From Spirochaetales bacterium (GTDB lineage Bacteria > Spirochaetota > Spirochaetia > DSM-27196 > SLST01): a stretch of DNA of 41,118 nucleotides. Position 1 is the first letter of the stretch; each line of letters opens with the position of its first letter. The position numbers and the translations under genes are program-made. Shown here piece after piece: positions 15,143-24,048 of this stretch. The notes beneath the pieces are model-generated. The model saw only the letters and a program-made list of their open reading frames with translations, searched no databases and was not told where the DNA came from. The stretch covers positions 1-41,118 of the forward strand of contig SKZO01000320.1 in assembly GCA_007127335.1 (NCBI GenBank), written 5' to 3'.

Positions 15143-15586
15143 ATGCAGATCGACTCCAAACCCTACGGGCCGCTTGCGATCGACGAGCGACAGGTGATCA
15201 CCTTCCCGGTCGGGATCTTCGGGTTCGAGCAGCTGCGGACATACGCTCTGCTCGATGCGGTTCAGACCGGCTTCTACTGGCTGCAGAGTCTCGAGGACCC
15301 GGAGCTCGCGTTCATTATGCTCAATCCGTACGATCTTCGACCTGACTATGTCCTCGAGGTCCCGGACGAAGACCTCGAGTCGATCGGTTACGAGGAGGAC
15401 GAGGATATTCTGGTCTTCGCGATCGTGACGATCCCCGACGACGAGACGAAGATCAGCGCCAATCTCCAGGGACCGATCATCATCAACCGTGTGGCGCAGC
15501 TCGGGCGGCAGTCGATCTCGCTCGATTCACGATGGAGGACCAAGCACCTTATCCTCGATGAGCTCGCAGAGACCGGGAGTCGTTGA
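15143..15586 (+). CDS. fliW: Flagellar assembly factor FliW
   Basis: [42 protein letters not shown]; adjacent to csrA. Confidence 0.95.
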
Positions 15587-15587
15587 G

Positions 15588-15836
15588 ATGCTCATACTCG
15601 CGCGCAGAGTAAACGAAAGCATCGTCATTGGCGATTCGATCCACGTCTCGGTCGTGGACATCAAGGGCGATCAGGTGAAGCTCGGTATCGACGCCCCCCG
15701 TCAGGTCAAGGTATACCGGCAGGAAGTGTACGACGCGATCCAGGAGGAGAACCGCGAAGCGGCTCGAAGCGCACGCGCGAGAACCTCCGACGCTTCACTG
15801 CCGTCCCTCGAGCGAAAACCGGACGACCAGGGCTGA
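15588..15836 (+). CDS. csrA: Carbon storage regulator
   Basis: [48 protein letters not shown]; start ATG 15588 (track start is upstream). Confidence 0.97.
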
Positions 15837-21857: not shown

Positions 21858-22009
21858 AATCCTACCTCCGTGTAAGATGCCGTCTTGAAAGAGCAGGGAG
21901 GAGAGCGCGAACTCCTCCCGCCCCGGATGTCCCAAGAGACGACGTCCAGTGGTCTCCTGGTTCGTACAGTTGCCTCGAGGTCAACTGCCGTGAACGGAGT
22001 CTATGAAAC

Positions 22010-22864
22010 CTAACCCAATAGCTGCAGGACCGACTGTGGCTGAGTATTCGCCTGCGCGAGCATCGCCGTATTCGACTGAACCAGGATCTGGTTCCTGACG
22101 AAGTCCACGACCTGGCGTGCCATGTCGGTGTCACGGATCCGGCTTTCCGCCGCCGCGAGGTTTTCGCTCGCTATTGCGACGCCCTGCTGGGCGATCTCGA
22201 ACCGGTTCTGGTACGCGCCCAGATCAGCGCGCTGCCGGCTCACCTGCCGCAGAGCCGTGTCCACGATGCCAATCGTACGATTCGCGAGGTCCGGAGTGGA
22301 GATCGAGACGATCCCGCCTTCGCCCTGGAAGTCTTCCAGGCCAAGCGCACGGGCCGTCATCGTTCCAATGAACACCTGCTCGCTCTGATCCATGTTTGCC
22401 CCCACCTGGAACTGCATGATCTGGCCGACGGCGGAATCGCGTGCGAAGGCGCCTGTCAGCATGTTCATGTTGTTGAACTGTGCGTGGGATGCGATACGGT
22501 TGACCTCGTCCACGAGTTGGGATACCTCAACCTGGATCTGCATGCGATCCTCCGCCGTGTAGATGCCGTTGGCACTCTGGACGGAGAGCTCGCGAATCCG
22601 GTGGAGGATGTCCTGCGTGTTCTGCAGGTATCCTTCGCTCGTCTGGATAAAGCTGACCGCGTTCTGGATGTTCCGCTCGGCCTGGTTCAGGCCCCGGATC
22701 TGACTCCGAAGCTTTTCGCTGACCGCGAGTCCAGATGCGTCATCTCCGGCACGATTGATCCGCATTCCACTGGAAAGCTGTTCGATGTTCCGCTGAATGG
22801 AATCCTGGCGGAAGTTCAGGGTTCGCGAGGCGAATGCGGCACTCGTGTTGTGATTGATGATCAT
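22010..22864 (-). CDS. flaB: Periplasmic flagellar filament core flagellin FlaB
   Basis: [59 protein letters not shown]; typical flagellin C-terminus. Confidence 0.97.
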
Positions 22865-22886
22865 ATGACCCTCCTTGATGTGTCAC

Positions 22887-22907
22887 TGAGGGCAATCCTT
22901 GCCCTCA
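22887..22907 (-). promoter_or_regulatory. flaB (22010-22864) 5' leader hairpin presenting GGA: candidate CsrA site
   Basis: Minus strand TGAGGGCAA-GGA-TTGCCCTCA, 12 nt upstream of the SD. Confidence 0.6.
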
Positions 22908-23075
22908 CTTCCTGCACGCGTCAGAAGGTATATCGCGCTCCTTCTGCTCCGTTCTCCGCGCGGACGGAAGGATCCCCCCACTGTGAATGGAGTGGTCGTT
23001 CCGGCAGGGACACCACCTCGAGCGGCACCGGGCAGCTGGACCGGGCATCACGAAGGGTTTTTGTCAAAGACCAGA

Positions 23076-23116: not shown

Positions 23117-23974
23117 TCACCCCAGCAATTGCAAGACGGACTGGGTCGCCAGGTTGGCCTGGGCGAGCATCGCCGTCGAGCTCTGCAGCAGGATCTGGTT
23201 CGTCGTATAGCGGACGACTTCGTGCGCCATGTCGGTATCCCGGATACGAGACTCCGACGCCTGCAGGTTCTCTGCGCCGACATCGAGACCCCGGATGGTA
23301 TGCTCCAGGCGGTTCTGATAGGCGCCAAGGTCGGCGCGTTGCTTGTTCACCTTTCGCAGAGCTGCATCCACGACACCGATGGTCCGGTTCGCGTTTTCGG
23401 GCGTTGAGAGCGAGATGATGCTGTTGTCCTCGAAGCGCACTCCGAGTCCCCGTGCAGTCATCGTGCCCACGTACACCTGTGTGCGCTGGTCCATGTTTGC
23501 ACCGATGTGGAACCACATGCTTGCCGTGACGATGTTCTCTCCCGTGTCACGGGCGAAGCGACCTGTCAGCATGTTCATGCCGTTGAACTGGGCATGGCTG
23601 GCGATACGGTCGACCTCGTCCACGAGTTGCGAGATCTCGACCTGGATCTGCATGCGGTCTTCAGCGGTGTAGATGCCGTTGGATGCCTGGACGGAAAGCT
23701 CGCGAATACGCTGGATGATATTCTGGCTTTCCTGGAGATACCCTTCCGTGGTCTGAATGAACGAGATGCCGTCAGACGCGTTCCGGGACGCCTGATTGAG
23801 GCCCCGAATCTGTGATCGCATCTTCTCGCTCACTGCGAGACCTGCCGGATCGTCGCCCGCGCGGTTAATCCGCATACCGGACGAGAGCTTCTCGATGTTC
23901 TTGTCGAGCCTTTCGGCTACGACGCCACGCTCGCGCTGCGCAAACATCGCGCTCAAGTTGTGATTGATGATCAT
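23117..23974 (-). CDS. flaB: Periplasmic flagellar filament core flagellin FlaB paralog
   Basis: [59 protein letters not shown]. Confidence 0.97.
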
Positions 23975-24021
23975 CTAATCCTCCGTGGATCTCTTCCGCC
24001 GCGACCCCATGCCGCGGCGCG

Positions 24022-24048
24022 ATGAAGGGGCATCCGTGCCCGCTTCAT
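24022..24048 (-). promoter_or_regulatory. flaB (23117-23974) 5' leader hairpin presenting GGA: candidate CsrA site
   Basis: Minus strand ATGAAG(C)GGGCA-CGGA-TGCCCCTTCAT. Confidence 0.6.

Follow-up and report, generated by a model that had tools for sequence, protein, structure and literature searches.

A covarying GGA-loop hairpin in spirochete flagellin leaders as part of a predicted two-site CsrA operator

The leader of a periplasmic flagellin gene from a Spirochaetales genome, in which a GGA-loop hairpin precedes a Shine-Dalgarno sequence (SD) that itself contains GGA, raises the question of whether translation of spirochete flagellins is controlled through a CsrA operator similar to that of Bacillus subtilis hag. 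The window (the whole stretch of DNA analysed here, 41,118 nucleotides) is contig C3 of a genome included in a spirochete family of eight genomes, whose named near relatives are Spirochaetales MAGs and, at a greater distance, Alkalispirochaeta. On its minus strand, flaB-a (23117-23974, assigned in a survey of flaB leaders and paralogues) lies in tandem with and upstream of flaB-b (22010-22864), which encodes a periplasmic flagellin of 284 aa (Flagellin_N 1.5e-37, Flagellin_C 5.4e-24) and is followed by flaG and fliD. The strand opposite to flaB carries flgK, flgL, fliW and csrA, in this order, at 12.0-15.8 kb.

The hag leader of B. subtilis holds two CsrA sites, one of them over the SD, and repression by CsrA is relieved by FliW; the CsrA core defined by SELEX consists of invariant ACA and GGA, mostly in hexaloops (PMC7652899). 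Among spirochetes, CsrA represses flaB in Borrelia burgdorferi, as cited in PMC3757020, and binds Leptospira flaB leaders via GGA, which was demonstrated in L. biflexa by EMSA with a GGA mutant (PMC8668096). For Treponema denticola, PMC9481697 predicts CsrA sites near the SDs of flaB1 and flaB2. Since control of flaB by CsrA is known in Borrelia and Leptospira and predicted in T. denticola, the circuit itself is not new.

The flaB-b leader (minus strand, GAAGUGAGGGCAAGGAUUGCCCUCAGUGACACAUCAAGGAGGGUCAUAUG) contains a CsrA-type hairpin, P3, with the sequence UGAGGGCAA-GGA-UUGCCCUCA (22887-22907, minus strand). Its arms (22907-22899 and 22895-22887) form nine perfect pairs around a GGA loop at 22898-22896, exactly as a sequence-only reading of this DNA had described. 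P3 is contained in the minimum free energy (MFE) fold of the leader, and its score is matched by just 6 of 20,000 dinucleotide shuffles. The SD, AAGGAGGG (22876-22869), precedes the ATG at 22864 and is overlapped by a second CsrA-type site, CAAGGAGGG (22869-22877, minus strand). The second GGA, also foreseen within the SD, is present at 22874-22872, 24 nt 3' of the loop GGA. The overall layout of hairpin and SD stood as proposed, the only correction being the spacing between them, which measures 10 nt instead of about 12. The loop of the sister genomes reads ACGGAUU and has a C-G closing pair, so that the inner A-U pairs of the window, and hence its GGA triloop, represent a local detail. The leader thus presents the two features of the hag type, a GGA in a hairpin loop 5' of the SD and a second GGA on the SD.

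The conservation of this arrangement was examined in flaB leaders gathered from the family, the order, the class and beyond, which after near-duplicates had been dropped comprised 197 spirochete leaders. A GGA-loop hairpin scoring at least 14 occurs in 71.6% of them, compared with 2.8% of shuffles. ANGGA is the context of 150 of 154 loops, with A, C, U and G all occurring at N, and the SD is CANGGAGG in 195 of the 197 leaders, with N free there too. An ideal SD would keep A at this position, whereas variability there would be expected of a CsrA site. The distance between the two GGA motifs is nearly fixed (median 24.5 nt, 10-90% range 22-28). Both free positions, in the ANGGA loop and in the CANGGAGG SD, fit the published SELEX core and count in favour of a CsrA operator. 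Two observations count against it: a clear GGA hairpin is absent from about one fifth of the leaders under the simple score, and P3 has nine pairs whereas SELEX-derived CsrA hairpins mostly have four or fewer (PMC7652899).

Covariation of the stem is pronounced. The score reached 0.893 for leaders with 7-nt loops (27 sequences; shuffled mean 0.236) and 0.853 for those with 6-nt loops (63 sequences; shuffled mean 0.245), and both values collapsed when the partner was shifted by one column. As these two sets had been picked for pairing, the test was redone unselected, with all leaders holding ANGGA 26-40 nt 5' of the ATG and with the arms exchanged among leaders in 500 swaps. The observed mean stem was 5.57, against a swapped mean of 2.31 and a maximum of 2.70 among the 500 swaps. 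Substitutions covary at nearly every stem pair while the loop stays A-N-GGA, which argues for an RNA element and for recognition of the loop, and it is this comparative evidence that makes P3 a conserved RNA element. Conservation and covariation of the hairpin and its GGA loop in homologous leaders had been named in advance as a check on the proposal, and the prediction held.

Specificity was explored with R2, a covariance model that spans the hairpin, the spacer, the SD and the ATG and matches the window at 22862-22910 (40.4 bits, E 3.4e-9). On ten whole genomes, all 26 matches at E<=0.0025 are leaders of flaB paralogues a, b or c, and the 20 matches retrieved from outside the class are all situated where a flagellin begins (MIINHN, MIINNN or MVINNN), so the element is nearly exclusive to flaB. 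Over 197 genomes of the phylum, 115 hold a match at E<=0.001, in 60 of 96 genera. A third flaB start in the source genome (G000), located at a contig end (C382:5271-5317, L260), is among the 26 matches; it was found by R2 only and had been missed by the protein search. The SDs of other genes that served as controls were a less clean set than wanted, because flaG leaders, themselves possible targets, were among them.

The presumed players of the circuit are encoded in the same window. As the sequence-only reading had stated, csrA and fliW lie 7 kb from the leader, and Pfam confirmed both identities: fliW, for a protein antagonist of CsrA, at 15143-15586 (plus strand, PF02623, 6.1e-39), and csrA, for a protein of 82 aa, adjacent to it at 15588-15836 (plus strand, PF02599, 5.8e-26). 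This is the single csrA of the source genome. Both genes are intact, and the CsrA of the window carries L4, R44 and N55, residues that are invariant across the 29 CsrA sequences examined. The same genome therefore holds a CsrA with its RNA-binding residues and, beside csrA, a fliW, together with Asn55, a residue that contacts FliW. The FliW sequence matches that of Geobacillus in the FliW-CsrA structure 5dmb (8.6e-24). Of the 80 flaB-bearing genomes of the class, 78 have csrA and 79 have fliW.

According to these data, the flaB leader is very probably a hag-type CsrA operator with two sites, as in B. subtilis, and with relief by FliW, preceded in flaB-b by an additional structured domain. In the proposed mechanism, one subunit of a CsrA dimer would bind the ANGGA loop of P3 and the other the CANGGAGG motif that is the SD, 24 nt downstream, blocking the start of translation by the ribosome. 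FliW, encoded beside csrA, would remove CsrA, and unexported flagellin in the cytoplasm would occupy FliW and bring repression back, coupling flagellin synthesis to export. The FliW-CsrA-flagellin circuit suggested by the earlier reading is thus supported, at the level of sequence, by the covarying hairpin, the ANGGA loops, the CANGGAGG SDs, the co-occurrence of csrA and fliW and the invariant CsrA residues.

The predicted operator resembles hag in its two GGA sites (one on the SD and one further up the leader), in FliW as the antagonist of CsrA and in flagellin as the target. It differs in that a separate hairpin precedes each of the three spirochete flagellin paralogues, that the filament is periplasmic, that an extra structured domain lies 5' of flaB-b, and that the CsrA site is here a predicted one. 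Borrelia and Leptospira belong to the same phylum and share the gene and the GGA motif on the SD, but their published sites are located at the SD, and no conserved upstream covarying hairpin is described in the literature examined, the original Borrelia report (Sze 2011) aside. T. denticola shares the order flgK, flgL, fliW, csrA and the prediction of CsrA sites close to the SDs of flaB1 and flaB2, whereas the accessible text of PMC9481697 is limited to prediction and reports neither hairpin nor covariation.

A departure from the consensus is found in flaB-b. In a large Treponema-type clade, in relatives of Alkalispirochaeta and in a few others, the loop of this paralogue is ANGA (e.g., AAAGCAUGAUGCUUU), one G short of the CsrA core, which counts against the CsrA operator. 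The leaders concerned (L060, L068, L176-L191, L104, L108, L110 and L112) belong to separate lineages in which csrA is present, so that loss of GGA as a consequence of csrA loss was rejected. In the Treponema genomes checked, flaB-a has ANGGA while flaB-b of the same genome has ANGA with an unchanged CANGGAGG SD, and the change is therefore specific to the locus. We read ANGA as having freed flaB-b from the upstream CsrA site, although the loop may instead have changed its binding partner.

These leaders bear directly on two of the alternatives. Another RNA-binding protein might read the P3 loop, or CsrA might do so together with a second factor that reads the upstream GCGC-loop domain, with CsrA itself acting mainly at the SD. 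The ANGA loops of Treponema-type flaB-b, which coexist with csrA and an unchanged CANGGAGG SD, speak for this explanation, as does the GCGC-loop hairpin P2, specific to flaB-b leaders and otherwise unaccounted for; the main ANGGA consensus is nevertheless that of CsrA, and paralogue a of the same Treponema genomes keeps it, and we consider the explanation unlikely. That the ANGA lineages retain the hairpin without GGA also suits a generic 5' structure, such as a barrier to RNase or a ribosome standby element, in which GGA would be incidental, and leaders often contain stable hairpins close to the SD. A generic barrier, however, needs neither an invariant A-N-GGA loop amid changing stem pairs nor a fixed distance to the CANGGAGG SD nor specificity for flaB, which renders this view quite improbable.

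A perfect inverted repeat can serve as a DNA site, and the hairpin could be an operator for a transcription factor instead of an RNA element; but the asymmetric loop is conserved on one strand, the repeat is positioned between the SD and an upstream structure, and the arms vary between leaders and covary, so that they hold no DNA consensus. We regard a DNA operator as very improbable. An intrinsic terminator or attenuator between flaB-a and flaB-b, which a GC-rich perfect stem between two genes would suggest, is hardly credible at all, given that no U tract follows the stem and that the hairpin is also found 5' of flaB-c genes that are not in tandem. A CsrA operator remains the preferred reading of P3 and the SD.

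This operator is not the whole of the flaB-b leader, in which P1, P2 and P3 follow one another from 5' to 3' in the MFE fold. P1 (22908-22970, minus strand) pairs CUUCC (22970-22966) with GGAAG (22912-22908) and GCGCG (22961-22957) with CGCGU (22920-22916), the support being the fold, covariation of the GCGCG/CGCGU helix in the family and pair counts in the class. It encloses P2 (22922-22946, minus strand), CAGAAGG-AGCGCGAUAUA-CCUUCUG, a hairpin with a conserved GCGC loop assigned from the fold and from leader counts. Hairpins with a GCGC loop were counted in 69.7% of the non-termite flaB-b leaders, compared with 3.5% of shuffles and 8.2% of flaB-a and flaB-c leaders. CsrA by itself does not explain the P1/P2 domain, which counts against the CsrA operator as a full account of the leader. 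In the family alignment, RNAalifold paired CCUUCY with the SD; this pairing conflicts with the better-supported P1 and is retained as no more than a possible alternative.

The same layout is found in Termite-flg (RF01729), described as a certain RNA, probably cis-regulatory, from termite hindguts only (Weinberg et al. 2010, PMC2864571), and named in no further paper in the literature searched. In termite-gut Treponema, 15 of 17 termite-type loci score above the RF01729 gathering cut-off, and the element ends about 20 nt before the flaB ATG. Termite-flg shares with the flaB-b leader its position 5' of flaB and the order of its parts, P1, then P2 with a GGCGCGAA loop, then a 3' hairpin with the sequence GGCAaGGAUaGCC. 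This 3' hairpin is the CsrA-type flaB-leader hairpin. In these Treponema, the structured domain and the CsrA module together constitute Termite-flg as a whole. Other contigs also score above the gathering cut-off, among them L143, titled as a sulfur-cave isolate and thus from outside termites. A pseudoknot between a 5' GUUUCG segment and CGAAA in the P2 loop of the termite sequences was discarded, as by eye it fits few of them.

The leader in the window has a 3' hairpin with an AGGAU-type loop directly after P1 and a GCGC-loop P2 at the same place as Termite-flg, but the score of its upstream domain is insignificant. Its RF01729 score is 14.4 bits (E 4.2) against a cut-off of 40 bits, an Rfam scan of the window at gathering cut-offs gave no match, and a model of P1/P2 alone (R3) gave none at this leader. 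A 46.1-bit match of the full-length model R1 to the window was rejected as sole proof of homology with Termite-flg, because R1 includes the hairpin, the SD and the start, much of the score derives from the hairpin and the SD, and R3 fails. For these reasons the window has not been filed as RF01729; its leader, which shares the Termite-flg layout, is probably related. A more tentative and unlikely proposal is that Termite-flg and its relatives form one class-wide two-module leader, in which the GCGC-loop domain would sense a protein, a partner RNA or its own fold and gate access of CsrA to the hairpin and SD of flaB-b only, so that the flagellin mix of one filament would be tuned at the RNA level. 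One flaB-b leader (L033, minus strand, gene start 1501) lacks the GCGC-loop P2. In its place stands the hairpin CAAAGUGCAAAGGAUUGCGCUUUG, whose AAGGAUU loop gives P2 the look of an additional CsrA site.

The literature examined does not mention covariation of the hairpin across the phylum, its occurrence at each of the three paralogues or its identity with the 3' hairpin of Termite-flg. These findings provide part of an orphan Rfam RNA, which is not confined to termite guts, with a function that can be tested, namely CsrA binding, and would extend the FliW-CsrA-flagellin checkpoint, so far tested in a few spirochetes, to a predicted operator conserved across the phylum. As each paralogue holds its own copy of the hairpin and the GGA is altered in one paralogue only in some lineages, differential translational control of multi-flagellin filaments becomes directly testable.

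Other features were observed in the neighbouring leaders. The flaB-a leader of the window's genus (23990-24041, minus strand) shows two hairpins, a distal one with ACGGAU and a proximal one with AUGGGG. The leader survey places the GGGCACGGAUGCCC hairpin of the window at 24028-24041 (minus strand), with its GGA 58 nt 5' of the flaB-a ATG. In the proximal hairpin, which is at the usual distance from the ATG and within an R2 match at 23972-24020, GGG replaces GGA. About 100 nt upstream of flaB-a, some leaders (e.g., L116:1408, L118:1426 and L120:1375) carry AAGGAGGUG(AU), a perfect extended SD with no evident reading frame, which may stabilise the leader or act as a standby site for ribosomes, and the flaB-a leaders of family f6 (e.g., L040:325, L047:312 and L052:294) conserve AUGUAGCCUUGUA within inverted arms 5' of the CsrA-type hairpin. 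At flaG (FlaG PF03646, 3e-20), 3' of flaB-b, the SD lies in a hexaloop, AUCUUAC-ACGGAG-GUAGGAU (21859-21878, minus strand), and 27 of 65 relatives have such an ANGGAG hexaloop hairpin with a stem of 6-8 bp. Further upstream is a GCGC-loop hairpin, GGGAGGAG-UUCGCGCU-CUCCUCCC (21896-21919, minus strand). Both modules of the flaB-b leader appear to recur here, and flaG may be a further CsrA target.
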